From positions 62,001 to 126,000 of the forward strand of contig JAMXDE010000025.1 in the NCBI GenBank assembly GCA_026770025.1: a stretch of 64,000 nt of DNA, read 5' to 3'. Below are positions 23,008-56,148 of this stretch, piece after piece. Numbering within the stretch: position 1 is the stretch's first letter; each line of letters opens with the position of its first letter. Both the position numbers and the translations under genes were made by a program. The DNA is from Craspedostauros australis (Eukaryota > Bacillariophyta > Bacillariophyceae > Mastogloiales > Achnanthaceae). The notes below the pieces were generated by a model. It had not been told where the DNA came from. It saw only the letters and a program-made list of their open reading frames with translations, and ran no database searches.

Positions 23008-23031
23008 TGATTGGATGGGCGTGCCTTCATG

Positions 23032-23034
23032 TCA
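23032..23034 (-). promoter_or_regulatory. In-frame UGA between Copia-3a gag and pol (candidate readthrough stop)
   Basis: Sense sequence GAGAACTGACATGAAGG. The frame is open on both sides of this single TGA and the base after it is C, a leaky context. The same TGA at the same place survives in the diverged Copia-3b (32874-32876). Confidence 0.7.
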
Positions 23035-23037
23035 GTT

Positions 23038-24528
23038 CTCACTGACGTTTCCATCGCTGGGAGTGGAATGCTGGCTACTGTCATAGTGGCCATCACTGTC
23101 GTCGAAGTGGACGTGAGGAGCTGACTTGGCATGGACCTTGACGGATTTGGATGAGGACGATTTCTTGTCGTGCGGGCGCTTCTTCCCAGAGGAGTCAGCG
23201 TTCTTGCCGGATCGGGCGCGACAGTCGGATGTCTTGTGCTTGCCCCATGCCTTGTGGTTGTCACACCAGTGGAAGGTTGTTCCTTGGTGGACGAAGTGCT
23301 TGGGATCGTTGCCCTTTGGCGGATCGCGATTGGCGAGAGGGTGGTTGCCGCGCTTGTGGCGAGCTGTCCCTTTGTTGTCTTTCTTGTTGTTTGCTCGCTT
23401 GCCGGTTGCTTTGGTGAGCGAGGCTTTGAGCTGCTTCGTCTCGGCTCGGAGGGCGAGGAGCTGCTTGTCGCGGGAAAGGCGGTTCCATGTGCCGGCGTTG
23501 ACCAAGCTCTGGTACTTGGTTTCGGCGGTGTTCATGAGACTGACGTAGTCTGGAGTGCCGGAGTCGCTGCAGCGCTGGATGCGGTTGACGAACTCCTCAT
23601 TGTCTGCTGTGTTGTATGCAGTGATGAGTGCGAAGGTCACTTCGCTGCCGACTGCTTCGCCTTTGGACTGTAGAGTGAAGACTTGATTGCGAACGTGGTC
23701 GTTGAGCTTCTTGATGTCGTTGTCGAAGTCTTTGAGCTTCAATCGATGTAGATTCATACGGATGCTCGTGCTGAGGTCATCTGTGTCGATGCTGACATGA
23801 GAGAGGACGACGCGTAGGAGCGTTGGTCCATCCATGAGTCCGTTGATTTCGTATGTGCTGCGCTGTGGCAGGATGCGATTGACGAGGTTGGGGCTCAGCG
23901 AGTTGAGGATGGCGACACCTATGAGGTGCGCAGCTTGCTTCTCGACGCTGTCATTGATGTGACGCAATGTGGCACTGGTGCGCACATGGTCGATGGTGGT
24001 GAGTGGATAGTTGTCGAGGATGTTGTACATGCCTGTTGTTGTGGCGACTTGGAAGATGTCGATGCATTGCATCATCATCGCGCGAGTGCGAATGTTGGCG
24101 AGGAAGACGTTGATGTTCTCTGGAGCGCCTTCGAACTTGTCGTCGCTGAGCTTCTCTTGTGCTGTCTTGATGAGAGCAGCGCCTGTCTTGGTTGTTGGAT
24201 CGATGAGGGATCCATACGGTGTTACAGCGAACTGTGCTGGTTGCTGGTTGGCTGGCGGATTCGGATTGGCTTGGACGACTGGCTGTGCTGCTGCTGCTGC
24301 TTGGACTTGTGTTGCCACTTGCTGCTGGATGATTTGGACGAGCTGTGCCATGTTCAGAGCGATGGGCTGTCCTCCTGCTTGTGGCTGTTGCTGTGCTGCC
24401 TGTGGTTGCGCGGCTGCTTGTCCTGTAGGTGCAGTTGTAGCTGTGGCGTCGTTGGGTTGGTTGCCTTGATCCGCCATGGTCGCTCTTCGAGTTTCGTTGT
24501 TGTTGTTGTTTTTGGTGCGTGCGACCAA
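23038..24528 (-). CDS. Copia-3a Gag (498 aa)
   Basis: Starts MVARTKNNNNNETRRATMAD with a low-complexity Gln/Ala-rich N-terminus (residues about 30-90), then an alpha-helical Gag core of the UBN2/Copia type (about 120-330), a Lys-rich coiled region, and one variant zinc knuckle WCDNHKAWGKHKTSDC in which the second Cys is His (C-H-H-C), followed by a Ser/Lys/His-rich tail ending GNVSEN. The inner Met of MADQGN could be the real start. Stop TGA at 23034-23032. Confidence 0.9.
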
Positions 24529-24572
24529 ACGAAACGATCAGAGCGCGTGTTTCACGTTGCGCAGAGGAAGCG

Positions 24573-32876: not shown

Positions 32877-32885
32877 CATGTCAGC

Positions 32886-33067
32886 ATGCCCATCCAGTCA
32901 ACGTTATCAGTCACAGAACTGCAAGGCACCTCTGCGATGCAGATGGCATTGCATCGGATGGGTGATATGCCAATCGGAATCAACACTTGCATGTTGGCCA
33001 CAGTCTCTGGACAATGCGGAAACTTCAACAACGATCTTCAACCTATCCATGGTATGACCATAGAAGG
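32886..33067 (+). pseudogene. Copia-3b Pol remnant, 5' end
   Basis: MPIQSTLSVTELQGTSAMQM... corresponds to the start of Copia-3a Pol, including the protease region (INTCMLATVSGQ, where Copia-3a has IDTCTSATVSGQ). Cut at 33067 by Copia-4 with duplication GAAGG (33063-33067). Confidence 0.86.
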
Positions 33068-33698
33068 TATTAGCGCACGCTAAATCTCTAACAATAGCGA
33101 CACCCGTCGACCAATCAGAAATCTTCACTTTTCTTACCTTTTCCGTTCCGAACGGAAATTTTGGTCGAAAATCCGTTGTGTCAGATTTGTGTCGCATTTC
33201 GCGTCGCAAGAATCGTTTTCCCTCAATCACAGATCCAAAAATGTCGCGGAAATTGATTTCTTGCCAAGATGAACCAATCTGTCCAATCAGGACAGACTTG
33301 GATCTTGGGTGTGACACGTGCGAATCTTGTCCTGACCTTCTCAAGTGAATACGATCAATCGTGTGATCGTACTACTAGCAACATCGTGAGAAGACGTAAT
33401 TCACAACACGGGCTATCGCGGTGTTTTGTTCATTGACTTTTGCACCTCATCTTCACGCAGTAACACGCACATTTGCCGTGTTGTCTCCGTGTTAATTTCA
33501 CTTGCAAATTGCATGAGACCTGTCATGTCTCTCTCATGCTCACAGTTCCAAGAAGACAATCTTGTGAGCTCGACAGCATTCCTACTACCATACGAATAAC
33601 ACAGTAAACAAACACTCTCCTCACCAACAACAACGACTTGATCACTCTACGTTCTCGGTGCGGTATCCTTCACACCCATCTACGATTACGTTCTAACA
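33068..33698 (+). repeat. Copia-4 5' LTR
   Basis: 631 bp with TA instead of TG at its 5' end. It contains a near-palindrome TTTCCGTTCCGAACGGAAA (about 33157-33175) and the hairpin TACGATCA-N6-TGATCGTA (about 33348-33369). Confidence 0.93.
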
Positions 33699-34018
33699 GA
33701 TTAACAGTCGCAAGCTTTCACCTACTGATTTGATTGCGTGACAATCCATCCATCCTTCATCTCTCGTCCATCCACGAGCGATCCCTTCACCTTCCATCAC
33801 GTGACGACGTGATTTCGGCTTTCCTTCGGCTTTCTTGCATTCGCAGAACGCCCTCCTTTCGGTTCCTCTGCTGAGTTCGGGCCTTCCCACTCAGCCATCC
33901 AAGACTTCCTGCAGCACCCTCCCGCACCAGAAGACGATTCAGTCAGTGCAACCCAGCCTCAGCTATCCCTCAGCCTCCAGCATCCGCATCCACTCTCTCC
34001 ATCCATCCATCGCCAATC

Positions 34019-37000
34019 ATGTCGACTCCTGAGATGGACCTCGCCACCTTGGATCACATCCTCGGTGTCATCGGCATTCCTTTGGACTCCACTCCTCGCG
34101 ACATCATCGCCCATGCGGACATCGTCAGCCCTCTTGACCTTGTCTCGCTCACCGAAGATGATCTTCGCAGCTTCCAACTTCGTGATGATACCGAAGATGG
34201 CGAAACCATCGTCGCCGTACTCGGAGTGAACCACATCCGCAAGATTCTCAACCTTGGCAAGTGGTATCTCACCCAAGCCATCCTCGACGACAACACCTGG
34301 AACGATCTCGATCGTACCTCGTTCATGGCGTTCACAGCTGAGCAGAACAACCCTTCCCTTCCGTCTTCGCACTCGCATTCGACTGCAAGCTCTCCCATTC
34401 CATCTCCGATGGGCATGGGCCACCACACCACTCCAGCATCCGCATTCCGTCCGGTACCTGAAGAACCTCCGCATGTGAACTTCGCATTCGATCCTTCGGC
34501 TTCGGTGCCTGATCCTGCCTACCCGCAACCGCCTGTGACTCCATCCGTGGAACCCTCTTCCAACTTCCAAGGTGTCCAAGCCATGGAGCTACCGGCTGAC
34601 TACGTCAAGGAGTTCAGCAAGGCAACCAAGCGAGAGAGTCTGTCGCTCCCAACACTGAAGGACGACAAGCACTTCCTCACCTTCATGCGGACCTTCGAGA
34701 CTCTTTCCTTCTCTCATGGACTCAACCACCATCTCGACATGGACTTCATGCCAGCACCCAAGGACGAGGCCTTCTTCGCGAGCCAGAATCGCTACCTCTT
34801 CGCCGTGCTCACTGAGCATGTCAAGACTTCCAAGAGTCGGCGCATCATCCGTGCCTACAAGAAGTCTTGCGATGGCCGTGCGGCCTACGCCGATCTCGTC
34901 GATAGCTACACCAGTGGCGTCGTCGGCGAGACTCTGTCCATCAAATACAGAGACACCATCGTCGCCTTCCGTCTGGACCAGACTTGGACCAAGACCCGCG
35001 AGCAATTCCTCGATGCTTGGGAAACCAAGCTCGACGACATCGAGGAGCTCGATGATGCATGCGTTGACGAAGCAGTCAAGCAGCAATGGCTGCGCACCGC
35101 CATCGGTCCCGATGTCGACCTGACTCGGGCCTACACCAACGTCAAGTCCAACTCTCGCCAACGTCACAAGCAATCTCGCGGCTTCATCAAGGTTGGTGTC
35201 TCCTTCGAAGACCTCCTCGAGTTCGTCCGCGATGAGGCGCAGTCCCTTGATGCCAACCAGCCTCGCACCACATCTCGGCGCAAAGTCAACAACGCCAAGA
35301 CCGGCGGCTCTGCTGGCAAAGGCAATGGCAAGGACTATGCCAAGGACGACCGCCGTTCCATTCCCAACGACGAATGGCGTGAGATGTCCAAGGATCAGCG
35401 TAAGGCTTTCCTTGAGGCCAAGGGCAAGTGGCGCAAGAACAAGGGCAAGGGCAAGGCTGACTCCCACCGAGCTGCCAACAACGCTGCCACATCTTCGGGT
35501 ACCACCGACACTCCTTCCGCAACCCCGCCTGCTGGCAACACGGACTCTTCCAAGGCTGGTGACCAGTCCACTGCCATCGATCGCCTTCTCGCACAGACCA
35601 AGTCCACCTCTTCGTCTGACGATACTCCTCAACTGGTCTACAAGGGCCAGACCTGGCGACTTGCCAACTCCACGGTGGTCCGGTACAGCTTCAACAAGCT
35701 TGTCAAGGACCACTCTGGCTCTCTCGTCGACAGCGGTGCCAATGGTGGCCTGGCTGGCGATGACGTCCTCGTTCTCTGCAAGACAGGACACACCGCCGAC
35801 GTCAGTGGCATTGGTGACTCTGCCATCGCCAACCTCGACATCGGTACGGTTGCCGGTCTCATCCAGACCACCGAAGGGCCCATCATTGGTAAATTCCACC
35901 AATACGCGCTCTACGGAAAGGGCAAGACCATCCATTCATCCAACCAGCTTGGTGCCTTCGGAATGGATGTCAACGAACGCCCACGGAATCTCCCTGGAGG
36001 TCGCCAGACCATCATCACACCAGGAGGCCACATCATCCCACTGGCCGTCCGGCAAGGCCTGTCCTACATGGACATGGCCAAGCCTACCCGCTCCGAACTC
36101 GACAAGTATCCACATGTCGACTTCACCGCGGACGACGAATGGGACCCTTCTTCCCTCGACCAGGAGATGAACCTCGACGACGTCGACGATGATGACGCCG
36201 CAGCACTCCAGCGCCGCGAGAACAACTCTACCGTTCTCACGGCCTACACTGGTGCTCGCCAAGCCGACATCGCTGATAATCCGGGCAGCATCATTGCCAC
36301 TCGCAAGCCTGCTGACTACGAGGCCCTCCGCCCCCACTTCGGCTGGATACCAGCTCGTCGCGTTCGCGACACTCTTCGGTGCACCTCCCAGTGGTACCGT
36401 ACCGCCGAGCGCTTCTCCATGCGCAAGCATTTCAAGTCTCGGTTCCCAGCGGCCAACGTCGACCGTCTCCATGAGACGGTTGCGATGGATACGCTCTTCT
36501 CCGATACCCCTGCTCACGACGACGGGGTTCCCGGCCATGGCGGCTGCACCATGCTTCAGGTGTACGTCGCCCTCGACTCTCGGTTCACGGCCGGCTTTCC
36601 CATGCCATCCGAGAGCCGCATCTCCGACACTCTCCGTGACTTCATCCGACGCCATGGGGCTCCTGATCTACTGATGTCCGACAATGCCAAGGCGCAGATC
36701 GGTAACAAGGTTATGGAGATCCTCCGGCAGTATCACATCCGTGATCACCAGAGTGAGCCGGAACATCAACACCAGAACGGCGCGGAACGCCGGATCCAGG
36801 ATATCAAACGCACAACCAACGGTGTAATGGATCGCACGGGTACTCCCGACCGCTTCTGGCTGATCTGCACGCTCTATGTGGTTGATCTCTTCAACCACAT
36901 CGCGCAGGTCACCGCTGGCTCCATCACCCCCCTTCAAGCCGCCTTCGGACAGCGACCGGACATCTCCAAGTTCCTGTCCTACCGATGGTGGCAGCCTGTC

Positions 37001-39601
37001 TACTACCGGGTTGACGACCCCACCTTCCCCAGCCAGTCCAAGGAGCGCAGTGGGCGCTGGGCCGGTCCCTGCCTGCACAAAGGCGATGATCTTACCTTCT
37101 GGGTCCTCGACGACGAGACCCAGCGACTTCTTCCTCGGTCTGCCATCCGACCTGCCGACGACTCTGCCACCCGCAATCTTCGTGCGGACTTCCCCTTCCC
37201 CATTGTTGGGGAGGACGATGGCTCTGATGCCATGAATGTGGCGAATGGGGAGCCAGACGACGACATCTCCGTCCCTCCTGACTCCGACCCCATCGTACAC
37301 TCCCTCGCCGATTCCATCCTGGCTGACCGCCGCGGCACAGACCCTGAAACAGTGGGGAATGCCAAGGTCCACATCCCGAAGTTCTCTCCCGAGGATCTCG
37401 TTGGGATGACCTTCATCCACGAAAAGGATGGCCAGCAAGTCAGAGCGGAGGTGGTGCAAAAGGTCAATGACCTTGACGCAGCCAACCACCAACGCATCAA
37501 GATGCTACTCGCACTGGCTGATGGGGAGATGCATGACCTCATCTCCTACGTTGAGCTCGCCGACATCATCGAACGGCAACAAGAGCACAGCGACGACCCC
37601 GACGCCAAGTGGGAGTTCGACTCCATCATCGGACACGAGGGTCCCCTCTCATCTTCCTCTCCCTCCTACAAGGGATCGAGCTTCAACGTCATCGTGAAAT
37701 GGGGAGACGGCTCCACCTCCACCGAACCCCTCTCCATCATGATTCAGGATGATCCTGTCTCTTGCGCTGCCTACGGCCGCCGCCACGAGCTGCTCGACGA
37801 GCCTGGCTGGAAGCGCCTCAAGCGCCTCGCCATCCGCACCAATCGTCTTGAGCGTCAGGTCTACAAATCCAAGACCTTCAACCATGCTCCCACCTTCCAG
37901 TTCGGTGTCCAAGTCCCTCGCAACCACAAGGAAGCGATGCGACTCGACGACAAGAACGGCAACACTCTCTGGGCCGATGCCGAGAAGAAAGAAATGGACC
38001 AACTCTTCGGGTACCATACCTTCAAGTCTCTCGGCAAAGGCGCCCCAGTCCCCTCCGGCTTCCAGAAGATCCGCCTCCAATGGGTCTACGCTGTGAAGCA
38101 TGACCTCCGCCACAAGGCGCGCTGCGTCGCTGGTGGTCATCTCACCGACCCCTGCAAGGATGCATCCTACGCAGGTGTGGTCAGTCTTCGCTCTCTCCGC
38201 CTCTCCCTCCTCGCTGGCGAACTCAACGGCATCCCAACCTGGGTTGGAGACATCGGCAATGCGTATCTTGAGGCCTTCACTCAAGAACGCATCTGCTTCA
38301 TCGCTGGCGATGAATTCGGTGACTTCGCTGGTCATACCATGCAGATAGTCAAGGCACTCTACGGCCTGCGCACATCGGGCGCCCGATTCCATGAGGCCCT
38401 CGCCGACACCCTTCGCGACATGGGTTTCCTCCAATGCCGCTCCGATCCCGACGTCTGGATGCGTGACGCCAACTCCCATTGGGAGTACGTCTGCGTCTAC
38501 GTCGATGATCTCACCGCGACGATGGCCGACCCCAAGGCCTTCTTCGACATCCTCTCTTCGAAGTACGGGTACCAGCTCAAGGGAGTTGGTCCTATCAAGT
38601 ACCATCTTGGTGCTGACTTCGGCCGTGATCCCGACGGCACTCTCAAGCTCTCCCCGCAATCCTACATCAAGCGGATGATGGAGAACTACGAGCGCATGTT
38701 CGGCGAGCTTCCCCGCAAGATCAGCTGCCCCCTCGACAAGGCCGACAGTCCCGAGCTTGACACCTCTTCCGAACTCAGCGAAACCGACAAGCGCAAGTTC
38801 ATGTCGCTCATCGGTGCACTCCAGTGGTGTATCTCCCTCGGACGGTTTGACATCTCTGTCGCCGTCATGACGCTGGCACGCTTCCGCTCAGCTCCTCGCC
38901 AAGGACATCTGGACCGCGCCAAGCGCATCTACGGGTATCTTCGAAAACACCCTGATGCCGCCATCCGCTTCCGCACTTGCGTTCCACGCTTCGATCTTCA
39001 CTACGAGGTTCCCAACCATGACTGGATCTACTCCGTCTATGGGAAGACCTCTGAGGAGATTCCGGACGACATCCCCGAGCCGAAAGGCAAACCCGTCCGA
39101 ACCACCACGTTCGTCGACGCCAACCTTCTCCACTGCCAAGTCACTGGCAGATCGGCCACCGGTGCACTCCATCTGGTCAACCAGACCCCCATCGAATGGT
39201 TCTCCAAGCGTCAGGGCACGGTTGAGACCGCCACCTACGGGTCCGAGTTCGTCGCTGCCCGTCAAGCTACGGAGCAGATCATCTCCCTCCGTCTTGCCCT
39301 TCGTGAAATGGGCATTCCGATCGACGGCCCCAGCTGGATGCTGGGCGACAACCAGTCCGTCATCACCTCCTCCACGGTCCCCAAGAGCATGCTCTCCAAG
39401 CGCCACAACGCACTGGCCTACCATCGCGTCCGGTCCGCTGTCGCCGCTGGCATCCTCTACTTCATCAAGATCCCCGGCACGCAGAACGTCGCCGACGTGA
39501 TGACGAAGTTCCTTCCATGGGCTGTCTTCTGGCCCCTCGTGAAGCCCATCCTCTTCTGGAAAGGACACACCGAGTCCTCTTCCCCGACCTACAAGACCTG
39601 A
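34019..39601 (+). CDS. Copia-4 Gag-Pol polyprotein, intact (1860 aa)
   Basis: Starts MSTPEMDLATLDHILGVIGI. The Gag part has a Pro/Ser-rich segment (about residues 105-185), a helical core and a Lys/Gly-rich tail but no CCHC knuckle. Protease SLVDSGANGGLAGDD (about 570). The integrase has the acid sequence AMDTLFSD (about 823), MSDNAKAQ (about 888) and NGAERRIQDIKR (about 920), but the region before it lacks a clear HHCC finger. An acidic linker follows. RT: QWVYAVKHDLRHKARCVAGG (about 1355), YGLRTSGARFHEAL, CVYVDDLTATM (about 1494). RNase H: FVDANLLHCQVTGRSATG, VETATYGSEFVAARQATEQI, LGDNQSVI. Ends VFWPLVKPILFWKG and a short tail. This belongs to a Copia branch distant from Copia-1, -2 and -3, shared with Copia-5. 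Markedly GC-rich third positions compared with its neighbours produce long false antisense ORFs. Confidence 0.95.
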   Translation: MSTPEMDLATLDHILGVIGIPLDSTPRDIIAHADIVSPLDLVSLTEDDLRSFQLRDDTEDGETIVAVLGVNHIRKILNLGKWYLTQAILDDNTWNDLDRTSFMAFTAEQNNPSLPSSHSHSTASSPIPSPMGMGHHTTPASAFRPVPEEPPHVNFAFDPSASVPDPAYPQPPVTPSVEPSSNFQGVQAMELPADYVKEFSKATKRESLSLPTLKDDKHFLTFMRTFETLSFSHGLNHHLDMDFMPAPKDEAFFASQNRYLFAVLTEHVKTSKSRRIIRAYKKSCDGRAAYADLVDSYTSGVVGETLSIKYRDTIVAFRLDQTWTKTREQFLDAWETKLDDIEELDDACVDEAVKQQWLRTAIGPDVDLTRAYTNVKSNSRQRHKQSRGFIKVGVSFEDLLEFVRDEAQSLDANQPRTTSRRKVNNAKTGGSAGKGNGKDYAKDDRRSIPNDEWREMSKDQRKAFLEAKGKWRKNKGKGKADSHRAANNAATSSGTTDTPSATPPAGNTDSSKAGDQSTAIDRLLAQTKSTSSSDDTPQLVYKGQTWRLANSTVVRYSFNKLVKDHSGSLVDSGANGGLAGDDVLVLCKTGHTADVSGIGDSAIANLDIGTVAGLIQTTEGPIIGKFHQYALYGKGKTIHSSNQLGAFGMDVNERPRNLPGGRQTIITPGGHIIPLAVRQGLSYMDMAKPTRSELDKYPHVDFTADDEWDPSSLDQEMNLDDVDDDDAAALQRRENNSTVLTAYTGARQADIADNPGSIIATRKPADYEALRPHFGWIPARRVRDTLRCTSQWYRTAERFSMRKHFKSRFPAANVDRLHETVAMDTLFSDTPAHDDGVPGHGGCTMLQVYVALDSRFTAGFPMPSESRISDTLRDFIRRHGAPDLLMSDNAKAQIGNKVMEILRQYHIRDHQSEPEHQHQNGAERRIQDIKRTTNGVMDRTGTPDRFWLICTLYVVDLFNHIAQVTAGSITPLQAAFGQRPDISKFLSYRWWQPVYYRVDDPTFPSQSKERSGRWAGPCLHKGDDLTFWVLDDETQRLLPRSAIRPADDSATRNLRADFPFPIVGEDDGSDAMNVANGEPDDDISVPPDSDPIVHSLADSILADRRGTDPETVGNAKVHIPKFSPEDLVGMTFIHEKDGQQVRAEVVQKVNDLDAANHQRIKMLLALADGEMHDLISYVELADIIERQQEHSDDPDAKWEFDSIIGHEGPLSSSSPSYKGSSFNVIVKWGDGSTSTEPLSIMIQDDPVSCAAYGRRHELLDEPGWKRLKRLAIRTNRLERQVYKSKTFNHAPTFQFGVQVPRNHKEAMRLDDKNGNTLWADAEKKEMDQLFGYHTFKSLGKGAPVPSGFQKIRLQWVYAVKHDLRHKARCVAGGHLTDPCKDASYAGVVSLRSLRLSLLAGELNGIPTWVGDIGNAYLEAFTQERICFIAGDEFGDFAGHTMQIVKALYGLRTSGARFHEALADTLRDMGFLQCRSDPDVWMRDANSHWEYVCVYVDDLTATMADPKAFFDILSSKYGYQLKGVGPIKYHLGADFGRDPDGTLKLSPQSYIKRMMENYERMFGELPRKISCPLDKADSPELDTSSELSETDKRKFMSLIGALQWCISLGRFDISVAVMTLARFRSAPRQGHLDRAKRIYGYLRKHPDAAIRFRTCVPRFDLHYEVPNHDWIYSVYGKTSEEIPDDIPEPKGKPVRTTTFVDANLLHCQVTGRSATGALHLVNQTPIEWFSKRQGTVETATYGSEFVAARQATEQIISLRLALREMGIPIDGPSWMLGDNQSVITSSTVPKSMLSKRHNALAYHRVRSAVAAGILYFIKIPGTQNVADVMTKFLPWAVFWPLVKPILFWKGHTESSSPTYKT

Positions 39602-39625: not shown

Positions 39626-40256
39626 TATTAGCGCACGCTAAATCTCTAACAATAGCGACACCCGTCGACCAATCAGAAATCTTCACTTTTCTTACCTTTT
39701 CCGTTCCGAACGGAAATTTTGGTCGAAAATCCGTTGTGTCAGATTTGTGTCGCATTTCGCGTCGCAAGAATCGTTTTCCCTCAATCACAGATCCAAAAAT
39801 GTCGCGGAAATTGATTTCTTGCCAAGATGAACCAATCTGTCCAATCAGGACAGACTTGGATCTTGGGTGTGACACGTGCGAATCTTGTCCTGACCTTCTC
39901 AAGTGAATACGATCAATCGTGTGATCGTACTACTAGCAACATCGTGAGAAGACGTAATTCACAACACGGGCTATCGCGGTGTTTTGTTCATTGACTTTTG
40001 CACCTCATCTTCACGCAGTAACACGCACATTTGCCGTGTTGTCTCCGTGTTAATTTCACTTGCAAATTGCATGAGACCTGTCATGTCTCTCTCATGCTCA
40101 CAGTTCCAAGAAGACAATCTTGTGAGCTCGACAGCATTCCTACTACCATACGAATAACACAGTAAACAAACACTCTCCTCACCAACAACAACGACTTGAT
40201 CACTCTACGTTCTCGGTGCGGTATCCTTCACACCCATCTACGATTACGTTCTAACA
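39626..40256 (+). repeat. Copia-4 3' LTR
   Basis: 631 bp, no difference from the 5' LTR noted over the parts compared. Followed by GAAGG. Confidence 0.93.
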
Positions 40257-40261
40257 GAAGG

Positions 40262-43200
40262 AGTTGGAGGGTCCATCCCCATCCAATCCAAGGGCACACT
40301 GTCATGGACAATACTTGACAATGATGGCAGGCCACTGCAGATTTAGATATCCAATGCTTACTACGCGCCACGGCTTCGCATCCATCTGTTCTGTCTGCAG
40401 CAATGGTCTGACCAAGGCCCTCACAATCACCACTGCAGGCACCTGCGTACCTGCACGACATACGGCAACTACACTGTCCTGCGCTCCTCACGTTGCAAGG
40501 TCACAGTATATCATCATCCAGGCACCAACCTGCCTTTGATGTCTGTCGCCAACACCAAGTGACATGCGCCAGCATTCCTCACTACTTCCAGTCCTCCAAG
40601 CAACTCTGAACTTCTCAACATCAACAATGTCCCCGATATCATGATGGAGGTTCACGAAGATCCCAAGCTTGCCAAGTTGAGGCCCGATCCTCTCCAAGAC
40701 AACAACACACTGGTCTGTGATCAGTTGGCAACACATCCTGTTGGTGCGTCTGACGCACAAGGACAGCTACTCCGGTGGCATCATCACTTGGGACACCTAC
40801 CCTTCCGTGTCTTGTGCAACATGGCGTCACACAGCATCATACCACGACACTTGGCCACGGCCAAGTTCCCTCTCTGCATCTATGGCAAAGCCGTCCGTCG
40901 GCACAGGCCAAACCATATCATGCACGTTGTCAAACGAGCGCGATTCCCAGGGCATATAGTGTCAGTCAACCAGATTTTCTCCTGCCAGCCTGGGGTACTT
41001 CCGCAGCAAAACGGCACGCACACCTGGTCGCGATACACATGCGTGACAGTGTTTGTTGATCAGTACCTTGGTATTGAGTACGTTCACTTGCAGCTCATCC
41101 AGTCTGGTGCCAACACACTGCAAGCCAATCAGGCTTTCGAGCGCTATGCTCACTCATTCGGTGTCTGCATACACCACTACCACCCCGACAAAGACAGATT
41201 CGCTGAGCAGCTGTTCCGCACGGCTGTCGCAGCAGCCAATCAAATCATCGCATTCTGTGGAGTCAATGCTCACCATCAGAATGGCGTCGCCGAGCGACGC
41301 ATCCGCGACCTCCAAGAGTCCACTTGCTCGATGCTCTTGCATTCGCAGCACCATTGGCCTGATGTCATCCATCCGTCTCTATGGCTGTATGCTCTGCGTT
41401 ACGCCTCTGAGATCCGAAGGAACGCTGCTCGAGAGGGAGGTATATCGCCACTCCAGCGATTCGCGCAGATCAAGGTCCAACCCTTGATGTAACACTTTCA
41501 CACATTTGGATGCCCTGTATACATCCGCAAGGCCGCACTGCAACAGGGATCCCAGGTTCCCAAGTGGAGCAGCCGAGCCAAACATTGCCATATTCCTTGG
41601 CATGTCAGCTGAACATGCAAGCAGCGTACCTATCGTTCTCAAGATCGACACAGGGTACATATCGCCACAGTTCAATCTGAACTTCGATGGCAGGTTCCAA
41701 ACGGTCAAGACCAACCCACTAATGCGTCCTGTCGCATCGCAGTGGCAGCGTCTCACACACATCGACGAACCAGCCGAGCCCTCGCAACAGATTCGCTCCG
41801 AATGCATCACACGTGCTGTTCAGCACCAGCTTTCCGCAAGCACGCGTCCTCCAGGGACCACACACGCTGCACCTGATGCCAAGCCATTCCAGCTTGACAT
41901 GCAGCACAAGATGCACGACCTTCCAAGGTCCAGCCTTCCAAGGCACAGTCTTCCAAGACAACCAGCAAGCTCACCTTCAGAGGGAGCTACGCCATCGCCA
42001 CACAGAACGCATCACGATCTGCTACATCCGCAACAGAATGTGCAGAGACCAACCAGACTACACTCCAACTCCAATCCTACCACACATACACTGCTCAATC
42101 CTTCCACGCATCTGACATCCTCAACATGAACTCGGGCGATCTGCACCCTATGTCATTCGCAGCAACACTCGCAGACGATGACACTATGTACTGGGGGCAA
42201 ATGCAGAAGCAGCATGACTGTGACAAATTCATTGAAGCAATGCACAAAGAGATCGAAGACCACCAATCCAGACAACATTGGGAGGTCATTCAACGCACTC
42301 GTGTGCCAAAAAGGCACAAGATCCTGAAAGCTGTCTGGTCATTCAAACGCAAATGCAGACTTGCAACCGGCGAGATCTACAAGTGGAAAGCACGGCTACG
42401 CGTGCATGGAGGAGAGCAACAATATGGTGTCAACTACTGGGAAACATTTGCACCTGTTGTGCAATGGTCCACCATCCAGACATTCCTCACCATGGCCGTC
42501 CAACAGCACTGGCACACTTGCCAAATCGACTTTTTGTTCTGGAGTTCCCACAAGCGGATGTGGAATGCGACATCTTCATGCAAGTACCTCAGGGGTGCAA
42601 CATGGACGGAGACAGCAGGTCTCACGTTCTCCAACTCAAGAAAAATCTGTACAGCACCAAGCAAGCAGCATTGGTATGGCATCGGCATGTGGTTGACAGC
42701 CTGATGCAGCATGGATTCCGGCAAAGCCAAGTTGACGAATGCCTTCTCTGCAAGGGCAACACATCCATTCTGCTGTACGTTGACGACACCATCATCATTG
42801 GCCCACGCAAACACGAGATCGATGACATCATCGAGCGCCTCAAGGCACGGTTCACACTAACCAACGAAGGCAACATGGATGATTATCTGGGCGTTCACAT
42901 CCAACGTACTGATGACACCATCACACTCTCACAACCGCAACTCATAGATCGAATCATACGAGCAGCCAAGATCGATCCTGACTCACCAGGACGAACCTAT
43001 TCGACGCCAGCCGTCAAACCGCTCCTATACAAGGACACTGGTGGCCCTGCTGCCACTTGGCGATTCGAATATCAGTCAGTTGTGGGGATGCTCAACTTCC
43101 TCACATGATCAACGAGACCTGATATCTGCTTCGCAGTCCATCAATGCGCACGCTTCATGGCTCATCCGATGAAGTCACACAAAGATGCCATCGAATGGAT

Positions 43201-48548: not shown

Positions 48549-48868
48549 GCCCGGTCGGCAGCAGCGACGTTGCGACCAAAAAGCACAATCCCTTCGTCAA
48601 CATCTACAAGGACGGCAAGGAGGATACCCTGCGGCGACAGATCCAGCGCACGAAGAACCGTGCCACCAACATCCTCCTCGAGAGCTCGCAAATCGACCAA
48701 ATGGAGGATGATGATCAAGGCCTGCGCGTGGACCAGCTGCTGCAGGAAACGGATGAGATCCTGGAGGAGGCCACCCTCGAGATCAAAAAGTCCGAACACA
48801 ATCGCAACAGCTGGCATATCCGCAAGGCCATCTCGCTGTGTGACGACGATGATCTTGACGAAGATTGA
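48549..48868 (+). pseudogene. Orphan coding fragment between Copia-1b and Copia-5
   Basis: About 105 codons open from the Copia-1b LTR: PVGSSDVATKKHNPFVNIYK, then a charged, probably coiled-coil region (RRQIQRTKNRATNILLESSQ..., QLLQETDEILEEATLEIKKS, HNRNSWHIRKAISL) and the acidic end DDDDLDED. The stop codon is the first three bases of the Copia-5 LTR (48866-48868), so both ends are set by transposons and the real gene was longer. GC-rich, with codon use unlike the adjacent LTRs. Family not recognised; probably a captured piece of a host exon. Confidence 0.6.
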
Positions 48869-49036
48869 CAATTCTCACAGAATTCCTTACTTCTTACTTC
48901 TCTACTAATCCTATTAGTCAAATACTGGTCGGGGGGCTGTCTTCGGACAGCACTCACAAATAAACAACAAGAGCTCCGACCAGGGCACGAAACAACGGGC
49001 CAATACATCTTTCGTAGTTACTTGCACTGTTTGACA
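48866..49036 (+). repeat. Copia-5 5' LTR
   Basis: 171 bp, TGACAATTCTCAC to CTGTTTGACA. The 3' boundary is set by TGACA-like ends and by GATTCAGAGTCGTGC following as a likely primer-binding region; only the first 20 bp can be checked against the second LTR. Confidence 0.75.
48936..48964 (+). terminator. UUCG hairpin and AATAAA signal in Copia-5 LTR
   Basis: GCTGTC-TTCG-GACAGC (48936-48951), a 6-bp stem closed by the extra-stable C(UUCG)G tetraloop, is followed 7 bases later by AATAAA (48959-48964). Probably the R-region polyadenylation structure. Confidence 0.65.
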
Positions 49037-49112
49037 GATTCAGAGTCGTGCTTACCAACACTGAGCAACACCCAACACCACATCACCTTTTACCATCGTA
49101 CGAGTTACCACC

Positions 49113-50510
49113 ATGGACCGGCCAACCAACATCAACACCTTCAACAAGATCATCCAAGAGCTGGTACAGCTCGATGACGAAGAGATGGCGTTCATCGGCG
49201 AGAAACTCGGGAGAATCGATCGTGTCATCCGCAACTCGGACGCCACCATCGTGGCGGCCTTGGCGCTCTCGCCAACGCTGTCATCAATCAACATCACCAA
49301 CATCCTGCGCATCTTCGCATACGCAAGGTCCAACACCATCACCGCACGCACCGATTGGGCAGCAATCGACTTGTTCAACGAAGCGAACAGCTACGAACCA
49401 CCGGAAGTCAGCACGCCAGTTGCGAACGCTGCTGCTCAAGTGCGATCGGAGATGGCGATCAGGGAGGCAGCCGCAGCAGCGGATGCCACTGGGACAGCGG
49501 GTCGCGAAATCACCGTCAGCTCACCGAGCCGCGCGAAACGCACCCCGCGATCACCACGAACCCCACGGACTCCATCAGGATGGAAGTTCGACAAGATCAG
49601 CATGCCGGAGGCACCCGAATTCACCGGGAACAACAGCGACTGGTATGACTGGAAGATCGCGTTCAAGCGACAGCTGGTTACATCCAGATACGCCGCGTAC
49701 CTCGATGTCGACAAGCCATCGCATTTCGCAGAGGACATCGACGCGCAGCTCTACACTGTCCTGCACACCAAGACAGAGAAGGGATGCGCGGCATTCATCG
49801 TGGAAGCACACGAACCGAACGGCCATGACACATACCAGGCGCTCATACGCAACTATGAATCCGTCGACCACAAAGCTGAGGCCATCGCAGAGGAAGAACA
49901 GAAGATCGCCGAACTCCGTTACGACGGATCAGAGCCATTCCCAGTATTCGTCAACGCTTTCTCCAAGTGCATCCGTGTCATGGAGCAGAACGGAAAGCAG
50001 ATGACCGACCAGCAGAAGATCGCGAAGTTCTTTCGCAACATCACCGACGACCGCTTCACAAGCGAGATGTCCAGATTCCGCAACACGGAACACTCCTTCA
50101 ACGCAATTCGTGAGGCGTTCATGCAACATGACGCGCTCCTCACGAAATCGGAAGGACACTACTCTCCCAAGCGCAACCGTCGCTACCAACAGAAGGACAC
50201 CAAGGATGACCGCAAGAGGCTGCGCGAATCCTCCAAGTGGGATCGCAAGGGCGCCGCATCGTTTCGGTTGCCGGACTCCGTCTTCCGTCGCATGCCGGTG
50301 AGCACTCAAGTGCTCCTCGTCGAAGCATCTCGTCACTTCCGCACCACTGGGAAACCAATCGATGAGGAAACCCTCAAGCGCAACAAGCCAACAGAGTACG
50401 CGCGCAACCTGGAGTTGCCCATGACCCAGCGAGGACCCAAGCGGCCTCGCACGGGCGATCACAAGACCGGACGACCTGGCACCCAAGGACCATGGAACGC
50501 CGGTTCTTGA
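49113..50510 (+). CDS. Copia-5 Gag (465 aa)
   Basis: Starts MDRPTNINTFNKIIQELVQL. The N-terminal helical domain (about 1-90) is unlike other Gags here; a Ser/Arg/Pro-rich linker (SPSRAKRTPRSPRTPRTPSG, about 150) leads to a Copia Gag core (MPEAPEFTGNNSDWYDWKIA, about 170-350) and a basic tail (PKRNRRYQQKDTKDDRKRLR). No zinc knuckle. It ends WNAGS then TGA at 50508-50510, after which the same frame stays open into pol. Confidence 0.9.
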   Translation: MDRPTNINTFNKIIQELVQLDDEEMAFIGEKLGRIDRVIRNSDATIVAALALSPTLSSINITNILRIFAYARSNTITARTDWAAIDLFNEANSYEPPEVSTPVANAAAQVRSEMAIREAAAAADATGTAGREITVSSPSRAKRTPRSPRTPRTPSGWKFDKISMPEAPEFTGNNSDWYDWKIAFKRQLVTSRYAAYLDVDKPSHFAEDIDAQLYTVLHTKTEKGCAAFIVEAHEPNGHDTYQALIRNYESVDHKAEAIAEEEQKIAELRYDGSEPFPVFVNAFSKCIRVMEQNGKQMTDQQKIAKFFRNITDDRFTSEMSRFRNTEHSFNAIREAFMQHDALLTKSEGHYSPKRNRRYQQKDTKDDRKRLRESSKWDRKGAASFRLPDSVFRRMPVSTQVLLVEASRHFRTTGKPIDEETLKRNKPTEYARNLELPMTQRGPKRPRTGDHKTGRPGTQGPWNAGS

Positions 50511-50516
50511 CAATCA
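50508..50516 (+). promoter_or_regulatory. UGA-CAA-UCA: candidate programmed readthrough between gag and pol
   Basis: The Gag stop TGA is followed by CAATCA, which fits the CARYYA context known from tobamovirus-type readthrough. The frame continues open for 26 codons to the first pol Met and then through all of pol. Confidence 0.75.
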
Positions 50517-53500
50517 AAGACGGGCACAACTCGCCGTCAGTCGGAGATTGTCATCCACCTCAAACCCCGCGACTGTAGGGGGGCGAGCGTGACGACCGCA
50601 GCGGGAATGCCCGGACGTGCACGTCCGGTGGCACCACAAGAGTCCCGTCCGTGCACAACCCACCCGACAGTGGAGCACTGCATCCGAAGGGCAAGAGTAA
50701 CGAACGATAGCCAAGGCTTTATCATCCTAGACTCAGGGGCGGACGGAGACATCGTTCATGCGTCGGGCTGGGAGGTGACCCACACACACCAACAAGAGTT
50801 TCGTGCCCGAGGGGCGACGATCAACTCACCAATCGAGACATTCCAGATGGTCGACGCCGTGGCAGCATACGAGCCCCCATCAGGCGGCGTGATCCTCATC
50901 AAAGCAAACTACGTGGCTCTCGACAAGCATCCACAGCAGACGGAATCACTGTTTAACACACATCATATGCGCGCGTCAGGACTGAACGTCTACGATCGCC
51001 TAATTGAACATCAGGGACAGCAGCGGGTCTCATCGGACGATATCAGCATACCACTGGAGAACCATGAAGGCAACACGCTCCGAATTCCCATCAGAAAGCC
51101 AACAGCCCACGAGATGGCGACGGCACGGCATATCATCATATGCGACAGACACCAGCGTCTACGACGCAATGCGGGTCGGGTCGATTTCAAGCGAATCTTC
51201 CGACACCTTCCACCACACGTGGTGGAGAAGACAATGGCGGCGTCCACTCAGCTGGCGGATACTCCGATCAAGGCAGAGTCAAGACTTATCCCGCGGCAGT
51301 ATCGAGCGCAGCGAGCAGGAGTGCTGCAACCCAACAGAATCGACGGCAGAGTTGATACGGACACGTTCTTCTCTACCGTCCAGTCCATCAGGCACTACAA
51401 GTGCTTTCAGCTATTCTCGCACAACCAATCGAAATTCATCTGGGCGAAGCCACTGAACCGCGAGGCCATGGCGCCAGGGGCGCTCACGGATTTCATCATC
51501 CGCGTCGGCGCTCCGGATCTGCTCGTATCAGACAATTCGCAGGTGCAATCGGGCAAGGCATGGAAAGCGGTCACATCCCGCTATCTGATCAAGCATCAGT
51601 TCACTGTGCCCATGAATCAGAACCAGAACCACGCAGAACGGGCGATCGGCGATGTCAAGCGGCATGCATACCAGCTTCTGTGGGCCGCATCGGCTCCACT
51701 ATCATTCTGGTGCTACGCTGTGCAGCACGCAATCGACGCATGGAATTACACGGCGAAGGCAAGCCTCCAATGGCGCACTCCAATCGAGATCCTTCGTGGC
51801 AACACTCCCGATATCTCGATGTTTCGCTTCACGTTCTTCCAACCCGTCTGGTTCTTCGAACCCATGACCAAATTTCCCAACCATCCATTCAAGCCAGGGT
51901 ACTTCCTTGGCATCGCATGGAACCACGGAGATCCATTCACCTACACTATATGGTCACCACGAGGCGACGACGTCACGAAGGGCACCGCGCTTGTGCGCAA
52001 CATCGTCAAGCCGCGTGTCGTCGAAGACGCCGTTCCTCCACGCATCACAGACGCGGAAATCAGCCGCATCGCTCAACTGGATATCATTCACACCACTACG
52101 CGCGGCGAATCCGGCGAACGCGCCAGGACCAAGACTTTGCCGGCGGAACTCGCTCGACAGGTCCGTGAGGCCATCGACGCGATTGCTGTGCAGTCAGGGG
52201 CGGCGGCGGGTCCACCGGAGCCGGAGACGCAGGAGGTCAGGGGCGTATCCGCTAACAACACGCCAGCAGGCACGGCTGACCGATGGTTCGGTCAACCAAA
52301 CATAATTCCCAACGACGGCGACATGCCGGAACATAATGCACACGGCGTCATCTCGGATGACGACGGCGACGCATCCACGGATAACATCTCTGAGGAGACC
52401 GATGACTCCGAAGTCACGGCGATGCCAGACCCTCCGGAGCACCGCTCTCAGGGGCGTGAGTCCTCTCTCATTGAGAGAGAGCATGACGAGCTGTTCCGAA
52501 ATCAGGTCGAAAACGAGAAATCTGACGACTTGGCAATCAACTCCATCCTCAGCCACGCATTCAGAGACGGACATCTACACTTCAACGTGCAATGGTCCAA
52601 TACTGAAACGCAATGGTTCCGATATGACGTGATCCGCGCCGACCATCCCGAAATGGTAGCACGATACATCATTGACAATGAACCACGACGCAACGGTCGA
52701 CACAATCGACAATCGCAAGTCCTACTCAAATGGGCGAAACATGCTCTGCGAGCCATCAGGCGTAGAATCAGACGAATCGAGCAAACTCGAGTCTTCACAA
52801 CGGATGAGAACAACAACATCATCATCATCAGACGAATCCGTCCAGGCAAGAAGAAGCCGAAACGAGATTACTTCGCCACTGTATATCAATACGGTGTCGA
52901 GGTCCCACGCAACATGAAGCATGCATTGCAACTGGATGAAGCCAACGGGGATCATCAATGGAGAGACGCAGCGAAGAAAGAGATCGACGCATTGATCGAA
53001 CTCGACTGCTTCACATTCCACCCACCGACATACCAACCACCAGCAGACTACCAGAGCACGAAACTCCGACTCATCTTCGCGGTCAAGCAAGATCTGCGAC
53101 GCAAGGGGCGCTTGGTAGCAGGCAGGCATCTCATCGAGCTGGCGGACAACATCCGAGTCTACTCATCAACTGTCAAGTCGACAAGCGTCCGCATCCTTGA
53201 TGCAATAGCAGATGCAAACAACCTGCAACAGCTATGTGGCGACGTCGGCAACGCATTCGTCAACGCGTACACCAATGAGAAGATCTACGCGACAGCAGGA
53301 AAGGCATTCGACGACAAAGAAGGACAGGTCATTGTGCTCAAGAAAGCACTGTACGGTCTTCAGTCGAGCGCTCAACGATTCCATGCACACTTCGCCAATA
53401 CTCTCTCATCAATGGGATTCACGCCATCCCGCCATGATCAAGATGTATGGATACAGCGCAGAGACAACTCTGGCTACGACTACATCTGCACCCACGTGGA

Positions 53501-54584
53501 CGACTTCAAGATAGTCGCCAAAGACCCAGATCAGTACATGAAAGCGATCCAACAAGTCTACACAGTCAAAGACATCGGACCGCCGAAGTACTATCTTGGC
53601 AATGATTATTCCAGGAACGCAAAAGGAAAATGGAGCGTCGGATGCGACAAATACATTTCCAATGCTCTGGACAAGATCGAACGGCTCCATGGGGAACTGC
53701 ATGACCAACATGTGCCCATGAAGAGCAAGGATCATCCGGAAACGGATGATACGCCACTACTAACACCTGACGAGCAACAGCAGTTCCAGCAGCTCATCGG
53801 CATGCTGAACTGGGTTGTACAGCTCGGACGTTTCGACGTCGCATTTGCCACCTCTTCTCTCTCACGTTTCACATCTACACCACGAAAAGGGCATCTCACG
53901 AGAGCACTTAAGATATGGGGATACCTCAAGAGCAAATCCACGCTGAGAACCATGATTGACTCAAAGCCCATCGTATTCGAGAACTTCAATCCAGAATCGC
54001 CCAACCCGGAGATGGTTGCACAGATGAAGGAAGAGTACCCCGAAGCGGCTGAGGACATTGACGATCAGGCACCGGCAGCGATATATCCTGAGATCCAGAT
54101 GTGTGCATTCGTCGATGCAGACCACGCTCACGATCTGGTCACGCGGAGATCGAACACCGGCATCATCATCTTCCTGGGGCGCACCCCTGTGCACTTCTCC
54201 AGCAAACGCCAGACATCAGTCGCGACATCAACATACGGAGCAGAATTCAACGCAATGCGCTCGGCAACCGAGGAAATCATTGCACTCCGATACACACTCC
54301 GATCTCTGGGAGTCACAGTCAAAGCGCCAACGATCACGTTCGGCGACAACAATGCAGTGATATCGAACACGACCATTGCAGACAGCTTGCTTCAAAAGAA
54401 GCACGTGGCAATCTCATTCCACAGAGTCCGCGAAGCGGTGGGAGCTGGAATCCTTGTCCCAGTCTATGTCCCATCGAAGCGGAACTTTGCAGATATGCTC
54501 ACGAAAGCACTGGCAAAGCCAGAACTCACATCATTTGTCACAACTCTGTTCTATGCAGGTCTACCTCGAGATCAAGGGGCGTGA
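50511..54584 (+). CDS. Copia-5 Pol (1331 aa from Met 50589)
   Basis: In frame with gag after the TGA; the first Met is 50589 (MTTAAGMPGRARPVAPQESR). Protease FIILDSGADGDIVHASGW (about 50720). The integrase has TDTFFSTVQ, LVSDNSQVQSG (about 51530) and NHAERAIGDVKRH (about 51630), but no HHCC finger; LPPHVVEKTMAAS stands where it is expected. Linker with Asp/Glu. RT: RLIFAVKQDLRRKGRLVAGR (about 53070), YGLQSSAQRFHAHF and CTHVDDFKIVA (53493-53520), with HVDD in place of YVDD. RNase H: CAFVDADHAHDLVTRRSNTG, STYGAEFNAMRSATEEIIAL, FGDNNAVI. Ends FADMLTKALAKPELTSF... Groups with Copia-4. No frameshift or internal stop. Confidence 0.93.
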   Translation, partial: QSKTGTTRRQSEIVIHLKPRDCRGASVTTAAGMPGRARPVAPQESRPCTTHPTVEHCIRRARVTNDSQGFIILDSGADGDIVHASGWEVTHTHQQEFRARGATINSPIETFQMVDAVAAYEPPSGGVILIKANYVALDKHPQQTESLFNTHHMRASGLNVYDRLIEHQGQQRVSSDDISIPLENHEGNTLRIPIRKPTAHEMATARHIIICDRHQRLRRNAGRVDFKRIFRHLPPHVVEKTMAASTQLADTPIKAESRLIPRQYRAQRAGVLQPNRIDGRVDTDTFFSTVQSIRHYKCFQLFSHNQSKFIWAKPLNREAMAPGALTDFIIRVGAPDLLVSDNSQVQSGKAWKAVTSRYLIKHQFTVPMNQNQNHAERAIGDVKRHAYQLLWAASAPLSFWCYAVQHAIDAWNYTAKASLQWRTPIEILRGNTPDISMFRFTFFQPVWFFEPMTKFPNHPFKPGYFLGIAWNHGDPFTYTIWSPRGDDVTKGTALVRNIVKPRVVEDAVPPRITDAEISRIAQLDIIHTTTRGESGERARTKTLPAELARQVREAIDAIAVQSGAAAGPPEPETQEVRGVSANNTPAGTADRWFGQPNIIPNDGDMPEHNAHGVISDDDGDASTDNISEETDDSEVTAMPDPPEHRSQGRESSLIEREHDELFRNQVENEKSDDLAINSILSHAFRDGHLHFNVQWSNTETQWFRYDVIRADHPEMVARYIIDNEPRRNGRHNRQSQVLLKWAKHALRAIRRRIRRIEQTRVFTTDENNNIIIIRRIRPGKKKPKRDYFATVYQYGVEVPRNMKHALQLDEANGDHQWRDAAKKEIDALIELDCFTFHPPTYQPPADYQSTKLRLIFAVKQDLRRKGRLVAGRHLIELADNIRVYSSTVKSTSVRILDAIADANNLQQLCGDVGNAFVNAYTNEKIYATAGKAFDDKEGQVIVLKKALYGLQSSAQRFHAHFANTLSSMGFTPSRHDQDVWIQRRDNSGYDYICTHVDDFKIVAKDPDQYMKAIQQVYTVKDIGPPKYYLGNDYSRNAKGKWSVGCDKYISNALDKIERLHGELHDQHVPMKSKDHPETDDTPLLTPDEQQQFQQLIGMLNWVVQLGRFDVAFATSSLSRFTSTPRKGHLTRALKIWGYLKSKSTLRTMIDSKPIVFENFNPESPNPEMVAQMKEEYPEAAEDIDDQAPAAIYPEIQMCAFVDADHAHDLVTRRSNTGIIIFLGRTPVHFSSKRQTSVATSTYGAEFNAMRSATEEIIALRYTLRSLGVTVKAPTITFGDNNAVISNTTIADSLLQKKHVAISFHRVREAVGAGILVPVYVPSKRNFADMLTKALAKPELTSFVTTLFYAGLPRDQGA

Positions 54585-54601
54585 CAATTCTCACAGAATT
54601 C
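54582..54601 (+). repeat. Copia-5 3' LTR, first 20 bp
   Basis: TGACAATTCTCACAGAATTC equals the start of the 5' LTR (48866-48885). The next bases differ because element R1 begins. Confidence 0.85.
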
Positions 54602-56148
54602 TTTGAGAAAATTCACTAACCAGGTCGTTTTGGAGGCCAAAGTCCACTAACCAGGTCGTTTTGGTGCCCGACACGATGATTGGATGACTGAAATGGCCGG
54701 CGTGTCTCTCCGACAACATCGAAAATATTAATTTAGCCGTGAAGTAAACACATCAACCGTGTCCCTGTCTAGTAGTGTAGAGTACTCCAGTTTTTGATGG
54801 TGTTGATGAATCCTGTTCTGCGGAAGACGAGGAGAGGGTTAAACCAACTATATTGCATACTGACATCGGTCATGGGCATGCACCTACCTTGGGACGGTCC
54901 AGATCCAGCTGCAACGAGTGATAAATCTCATATAGCCAGTTCTCATGATACCGTTCGGTCACGGTGTGTACTATGTTGGTCATATGTGCATACAAAATGT
55001 CAAGCATACTTGATTAAAACAACTCCACCACTCCGAGAACACCTCAGCGAGTACAGTCACGAAGTATGAGGTCTCCAGTCCATCTGGAAGGCATCCATAT
55101 CTGAGAATCTAGATATCATGTAGTGTGGGTGACGGTACTATGAGCTACGCACCATACTGTACAGTAGATTGTCAAAATGTGCATATAAAACGTCAATCGC
55201 AATGAAATCCAACCCGGCGAGCACTTACAACACACTCCAAAGGATCTGGTCACGAAGTATGAGGTCCTAGATCCATCTGGAAGGTATCCATATCTGGATG
55301 TGGAGATTGTGTGTGGTGTTGTGGGTGGCAGTACAACGAGGTACGCACCATACTGTACAGTAGATTGTCAAAATGCGCATAGAAAATGTCAATCGCAATG
55401 AAATCCAACCTGACGCGCACTTACAACACACTCCAAAGCGTCTGGCCACGAAGTATGAGGTCTCCAATCCATCTGGAAGGCATCCATATCTGGATGTGGA
55501 GATTTCGAGTGGTGCTGTGGGTGACAGTACTGCGAGCCACGCACCAAACTGCACAGTAGATTGTCAAAATGTGCATAGAAAACGTGAATCACAATCAAAT
55601 ACAACCCTGCGCGCACTTACAACACACTCCAAAGGATCTGGCCACGAAGAATTAGGTCCTAGATCCATCTAGAAGGTGTTCAAATCGATGGATCTAGACT
55701 TCAAGTGGAACATTGCGTCTTGTGAGGTAGATGGAGCACCGGACTGCCACCCACAGCACCACTCGAAATCTCCACATCCAGATTTGACTACCTTCCAGAT
55801 GGATCTAGGACCTAATTCTTCGTGGCCAGATCCTTTGGAGTGTGTTGTAAGTGCGCGTCAGGTTGGATTTCATTGCGATTGACATTTATTGGCACATATG
55901 GGCAATCTACTGTACAGTATGATGCGTAGCTCGCTGTACTGTCACCCACAGCACCGCTCGAAATCTAGATTCTCAGATTTGACTACCTTCCAGACGGATC
56001 TAAGACCTCATACTTCGTGACCAGATCCTTTGGAGTGTGTTGGAAGTGGGCGCCAGGTTGGATTTGATTGTGATTGACATTTTGTATGCACATATGACCA
56101 ACTCATTACAGACAGTGACCGAATGACAGAACATGAACTGACTAAATG
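54602..56148 (+). repeat. Subrepeat element R1, copy 2
   Basis: 1.5 kb, no coding potential. Start: two copies of CACTAACCAGGTCGTTTTGG (54614 and 54643). From about 55020 there are three direct units of about 196 bp, marked by CAGTAGATTGTCAAAATG at about 55156, 55354 and 55550, then at least two units inverted (GACATTTATTGGCACATATG near 55881, GACATTTTGTATGCACATAT near 56077). This makes a large imperfect foldback. A first copy is at 31159-32145. Cut on the right by Copia-1c. Confidence 0.8.

Follow-up and report, generated by a model that had tools for sequence, protein, structure and literature searches.

The question raised by this locus is how a retrotransposon makes Pol when its gag and pol genes lie in one reading frame with a stop codon between them. 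The stretch analysed, hereafter the window, comprises 64,000 nucleotides of the diatom Craspedostauros australis (contig JAMXDE010000025.1, positions 62,001 to 126,000, assembly GCA_026770025.1) and comes from a 74.8 Mb genome of 90 contigs. The element in question is a Ty1/copia long terminal repeat (LTR) retrotransposon at 48866-54604 on the plus strand. Its gag ends in UGA followed by a hexamer fitting the CARYYA readthrough context of tobamoviruses (R, purine; Y, pyrimidine). Programmed readthrough of this UGA, of the kind known from tobamoviruses, appears to be the best explanation of this junction, with a probability of about 0.7 as judged from comparison of the genomic copies. The features of the window copy are as follows.

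48866..49036, plus strand: 5' LTR, ~170 bp, TGACAATTC...GTTTGACA, its end judged by eye; matching LTR pairs occur in other copies
49113..50510, plus strand: gag, from ATG 49113, 465 codons plus TGA
50508..50510, plus strand: in-frame UGA of the gag-pol junction, a stop kept across 67 junctions
50511..50516, plus strand: hexamer CAATCA, fitting CARYYA; CAAYCA in most junctions compared
50511..54584, plus strand: pol frame, 1357 codons plus TGA, in the same phase as gag
50589..50591, plus strand: GTG codon, as read in the sequence
50607..50609, plus strand: first in-frame ATG past the stop (codon 33), not conserved among copies
50730..50744, plus strand: protease motif DSGAD, beginning at codon 74 past the stop
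53040..53681, plus strand: reverse transcriptase domain RVT_2, a Pfam match
54582..54604, plus strand: start of the 3' LTR, shortened in the window copy, 23 bp matching the 5' LTR

The junction itself is as an earlier note on this DNA had described it, with the gag terminator TGA at 50508-50510 directly followed by CAATCA at 50511-50516, and with gag and pol sharing a single frame that is uninterrupted from 49065 to the TGA and again from 50511 to 54584. Two of its distances needed correction. The note placed the first methionine of pol 26 codons past the stop, where position 50589 is a GTG and the first in-frame ATG lies at 50607, and it counted 1331 Pol residues, where the frame past the stop holds 1357 codons. 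The protease motif at codon 74 and the reverse transcriptase in the second half of pol (PF07727, E 3.8e-18, 66.4 bits against a cut-off of 31.6) were seen in that order. Pfam gave no match between 50511 and 52508, the first half of pol, and none in gag, whose resemblance to Ty1 Gag p22 is very weak (E 0.41).

The 3' LTR of the window copy is reduced to ~23 bp, compared with 159-173 bp in 12 other copies; LTR pairs of 159-173 bp stand at the corresponding site in 12 of the 13 copies compared. Because the LTR pairs are 100% identical in eight of the 13 (subfamilies A and B, defined below) and 5-bp target-site duplications are legible in L001-L004, L006 and L017, the element has moved recently. 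The 3' LTR (54582-54604) opens with the three bases of the pol stop; in subfamily A these read on as TGA-CAATTC, in subfamily B as TGA-CAGCTT, each one base off CARYYA.

In the proposed mechanism, gag would end at a weak terminator, UGA then CAAYCA, at which the majority of ribosomes would terminate and free Gag. A small share would place an amino acid at the UGA and continue in frame through a short linker to yield Gag-Pol, later cleaved by the element's own protease, and the size of this share would fix the Gag:Pol ratio. The hexamer would itself act as the signal, as it does in tobamoviruses, with no structure downstream.

Genomic copies of the element were collected by DNA search, which found at least 33 places including the window, and by protein search, which gave at least 102 match rows; these repeat counts are lower bounds. 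Besides the window, 67 places were taken. One of these (L067) was dropped as it had no homologous junction, leaving 67 junctions with that of the window; 62 sequences among these are distinct across -60..+120. Four rows (C11:1933843, C6:519098, C27:162175 and C15:1171) were left out because they start no earlier than query codon 97 and seem to be second fragments of copies in the set. On the tree the copies fall into five subfamilies: A (n=17: window, L001-L016), B (n=7: L017-L022, L033), C (n=10: L023-L030, L051, L066), D (n=18: L034-L049, L052, L053) and E (n=15: L031, L032, L050, L054-L065). Over the first 230 codons, B and D diverge from the window copy at 27-35% of residues. The pol frame is open over at least 1357 codons in 12 copies (six of A, four of B and two of D). 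Nine near-identical D copies, three with TAA for TGA, lie on two short contigs (C71 and C87), as if by segmental duplication. Two scans of viral contigs gave no relatives.

Across the 67 junctions the stop is TGA in 63, TAA in four, and neither TAG nor a sense codon in any. The six bases that follow are CAACCA in 33 (30 after TGA, three after TAA), CAATCA in 29 (28 after TGA, one after TAA) and AAACCA in the remaining five, such that CAAYCA is kept in 62 junctions spanning all five subfamilies. By parsimony on the tree, the stop changed three times, from TGA to TAA only and at or near the tips. Within the hexamer there was one change at position 1 and there were three at position 4, all of the latter between T and C; positions 2, 3, 5 and 6 did not change. 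The earlier note had asked whether most intact copies have a sense codon at this site, and none does: TGA-CAAYCA is present in each of the 12 copies whose pol frame runs open for 1357 codons or more. Given the identical LTR pairs of eight of the 13 copies compared, TGA-CAAYCA is therefore the state of recently moved copies. In the TAA copies (L016, L038, L041 and L043) pol is broken in all four, and the AAACCA copies (L059, L061, L062, L063 and L065) form one clade inside E with a frame-shifted pol.

None of the 67 junctions departs from the common third base in either hexamer codon; of the 19 third positions tested, only three, these two among them, are as constant. This is so although codon use in the window element is CAG 50 against CAA 37, with TCA encoding 28 of 112 serines and CCA 49 of 103 prolines. 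Of the nine columns of the stop and hexamer, six are invariant compared with 12 of 63 other columns (Fisher p 0.006), and seven are when the five AAACCA copies are excluded (p 0.0009); both p values serve as a guide, the copies being related. The 9-mer TGACARYYA is not enriched in the window (five found, 6.28 expected), and CARYYA follows seven of the 3846 stop triplets on its two strands. The place and conservation of the junction hexamer are unusual, though the frequency of the 9-mer is ordinary. The interpretation offered by the earlier note stands in part. Readthrough is the best-supported mechanism, consistent with TGA-CAAYCA in every open-pol copy. These comparisons establish the anatomy, the conservation of stop and hexamer across diverged subfamilies and an open, weakly constrained frame behind the stop; that ribosomes read through, at some rate and with some tRNA decoding the UGA, is inferred.

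The same collection bears on the idea that chance fixation in an ancestor left the stop in place and that the copies are passive, mobilised by the Pol of other elements. Many copies are broken, and 14 of the 15 E copies (L031, L032, L054-L065) have a common frame change near pol codon 100, so these 14 were probably multiplied with Pol from other elements. As an account of the family, however, passive spread is highly improbable, given that pol remains open in 12 copies across the diverged subfamilies A, B and D, and that a selected frame behind a plain stop requires some route to translation.

The stretch directly past the stop bears on such a frame. Codons 1-73 are gap-free in the copies taken to represent A, B, D and E, and with one copy apiece from A, B and D only frame 0 is free of stops over these 73 codons. 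The ratio of non-synonymous to synonymous differences (pN/pS) among the latter is lowest in frame 0 in nine of nine comparisons (three pairs by three overlapping stretches), at 0.42-0.74 versus 0.78-2.10. In subfamily C one or two bases are lost in a G run ~23 codons past the stop and two more ahead of the DSG triplets; in six of the ten copies (L023, L025, L027-L030) these deletions sum to three, and the protease frame is restored. The stretch past the stop looks like a loose linker whose frame matters.

A linker of this kind also speaks to splicing, by which a minor message lacking the stop would give Gag-Pol. A splice-site scan covering 900 nt before and ~220 nt after the stop found three GT...AG pairs, at least 40 nt apart, that a copy of A, one of B and one of D have in common and that preserve the frame across the stop, and one of the candidate acceptors ends in TAG. 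However, the common donors (GTCGCT/GTCGAC/GTCGCA and GTACGC/GTTCGC/GTTCGC) look poor against the donor consensus, and the linker stretch that would be intronic is, in the same copies, gap-free, without frame-0 stops and with pN/pS below 1. Splicing is very unlikely to be the answer.

Pol may instead be made from its own message or by downstream re-initiation (through an internal promoter, an internal ribosome entry site or termination-reinitiation), the UGA then being an ordinary gag terminator. The window copy does have an ATG 32 codons past the stop and ahead of the protease, and an ATG at codon 3, present in ten of ten C copies and nine of 15 E copies, would permit ribosomes to stop and restart. 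These starts are not shared by all copies. By hand count on the alignment, the site of the window ATG (50607) is ATG in 12 and GTG in five of the 17 copies of A, and six of the seven B copies have their first ATG at codon 64. In D, 16 of 18 copies have no ATG ahead of the DSG at codon 74, the exceptions being L040 (codon 34) and L048 (codon 64); the first ATG is at codon 113 in 14 copies, and two have none within 132 codons. AUG re-initiation is therefore disfavoured in D. With AUG starts considered, re-initiation also leaves the conservation of CAAYCA and the absence of TAG unexplained. It does not appear to serve as a general answer, and overall a separate start for Pol is unlikely.

Decoding of the UGA as selenocysteine is extremely improbable. 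The genome contains a selenocysteine tRNA match above cut-off (76.6 bits), in a search whose control gave matches in 14 of 14 genomes and above cut-off in five. A selenocysteine insertion sequence was nevertheless not found by Rfam, at E up to 10, either in the window at 48800-54900 or in the 3' end of another copy with a full LTR (L001 6100-6800), with the limit that Rfam models may miss unusual elements of this kind.

A conserved nested structure downstream of the stop was considered and dropped, since there was no gain over column shuffles and a single covarying pair does not make a structure. Single-sequence folds of +0..+48 reached z of -2 or below in five of ten copies (-3.11 in the window), with -1.4 to +0.4 in the other five. 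For nested structures, RNAalifold did not outperform column shuffles in any of seven settings (z -1.4 to +1.6; matched by 22-194 of 200). Its consensus of 31 rows was a 6-pair stem reaching from just before the stop to ~90 nt after it (-2.31 kcal/mol), with three pairs changed on both sides and its energy reached by 73 of 200 shuffles. Subfamily A carries a perfect 8-bp inverted repeat spanning the stop. Together with an inner 5-bp hairpin, this repeat was paired at 75.3% versus 72.9% in row shuffles of the 29 distinct rows, with a covariation score of 0.125 versus 0.082, and none of 500 shuffles reached either value. Sliding the repeat by -3 lowered pairing to 66% but gave a higher covariation score (0.151), and three pairs of the repeat and hairpin fail in 14, 18 and 19 rows. 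The covarying pair joins 50514, base 4 of the hexamer, to 50547, 33 nt on (T-A in 29, C-G in 37 and C-A in one of the 67 junctions); its two bases changed three and four times on the tree and couple serine or proline codons with isoleucine or valine codons.

The closest architectural relative is Tca2 (pCal) of Candida albicans, which we take to be a Ty1/copia-type element. Tca2 has gag and pol in one frame parted by UGA, and bypass of this UGA was deduced since Pol depends on the LTR promoter (PMC2194720). It also has a weak promoter at its junction (PMC2194720), which would favour a separate Pol message. Tca2 has a purine-rich 8-nt spacer and a proposed pseudoknot (PMC2194720), whereas the window element has a conserved CARYYA and no conserved nested structure was found in it. 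The Tj1, Tosmo1-3 and Tcry1 elements of fission yeasts likewise have an in-frame TGA between Gag and Pol, within a strictly conserved 8-bp context, and the stop is cited as essential for Tj1 transposition (PMC10085805). In contrast to the window family, a copia clade with TGA-CAAYCA, these are Ty3/gypsy elements with the context GAA-TGA-CT (PMC10085805). The type I signal of tobamoviruses, UAG-CAR-YYA, shares the CARYYA directly 3' of the stop, but its natural cases are generally UAG (PMC3542737), unlike the TGA 63, TAA 4 and TAG 0 of the window family. CARYYA made UGA and UAG similarly leaky in a human-cell reporter, and UAA much less so (PMC4132726).

Type II signals (UGA-CGG/CUA with a stem-loop) are unlike the window family, in which the triplet after the stop is CAA in 62 and AAA in five of 67 junctions. 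Another copia element with a suppressed stop is SIRE1 of soybean, where the stop is UAG with a CARYYA-like context. SIRE1 resembles the window element as a Ty1/copia element with same-frame stop-codon suppression, but its suppressed stop lies between pol and an env-like gene and not between gag and pol (PMC2829016; PMC2194720). The CoDi elements, compared by description only, are likewise diatom Ty1/copia elements (PMC2806351). A survey of diatom elements from 2009 notes one stop or one frameshift separating gag from pol and, in the text available, names no codon, context or mechanism (PMC2806351).

Other copia elements of the same genome show how far the arrangement extends. A related element in the window (33875-39601; 39% identity over 566 aa of reverse transcriptase-RNase H) has gag and pol in a single open frame of 1908 codons; therefore not all kin carry the stop. 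Pieces from the group of a more distant element lie on either side of it (32877-33077 and 40233-41042), as if it had inserted into a copy of that group. This distant element, on the minus strand at 19288-24537 (24% identity across 442 aligned positions), again has gag, TGA and pol in one frame, with the TGA at 23032-23034 in the context TGA-CATGAAGG. In its group TGA-CATG was found in 13 of 13 junctions examined, those of the window and of L068-L079, the latter being 12 of 21 other rows over 400 bits. A third copia group (L080-L087, eight picked from many rows) has AT or AA directly behind the TGA in all eight. Its in-frame TGA follows ...EEEY or EDF, an open upstream gag frame was seen in one member, and the start of the downstream frame resembles membrane-spanning segments by eye. 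An ATG stands immediately after the TGA in L081, L083, L086 and L087, a point in favour of a restart at the stop, and in this third group re-initiation is possible. A UGA between gag and pol thus recurs among the copia elements of this genome, with the hexamer belonging to the clade of the window element.

Several of these results weigh against readthrough at CAAYCA. The two other copia groups have an in-frame UGA without CARYYA, and the UGA may therefore be bypassed some other way. In Tca2, a 300-nt junction reporter failed to give readthrough in Saccharomyces cerevisiae (PMC2194720). The codon-3 ATG of subfamilies C and E counts on the same side. Constraint on codons 1-32 past the stop is weak (pN/pS 0.52-0.74, five pairs), being 0.65-0.74 in the A/B/D pairs compared with 0.18-0.35 in the protease, and the linker G run is short by one or two bases in 12 of 33 aligned copies, with one G lost in each of L008, L009, L015 and L022. 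Nine of the 14 frame-shifted E copies retain CAACCA, so loss of the hexamer in the other five is a weak control. The third-position test is small, at ~0.02 by hand arithmetic, with related copies.

An in-frame UGA between gag and pol is already known from Tca2 and the Tj1/Tosmo elements. The subject of gag-pol recoding was reportedly surveyed by Gao et al. in 2003. In the mainly non-subscription literature, as far as its text was available, no report was found of UGA-CARYYA at a gag-pol junction or of stop readthrough in a diatom. With slightly less than an even chance of being correct in full, a wider proposal would be that this diatom copia clade sets Gag:Pol by structure-free UGA readthrough with CAAYCA, a natural use of the tobamovirus signal with UGA, and that two or more distant copia lineages of this genome settled on UGA between gag and pol, which would point to a host UGA that is readily misread. 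If the readthrough is real, the junction would give a short signal that can be tested in stramenopiles, a group remote from the plants, yeasts and animals where stop contexts were defined, with CAAUCA, CAACCA, AAACCA and TAA as natural variants for comparison. Diatom pol genes apparently cut by a stop may then be intact.

Apart from the retrotransposons, a genome-wide search for silicon transporters (PF03842) gave 88 match rows with a best E of 4.2e-249, of which 32 span at least 480 of 513 positions; these matches identify the genome as a diatom's. The control search gave matches in one of 14 genomes, none above cut-off. The 88 rows far exceed the number known for other diatoms.

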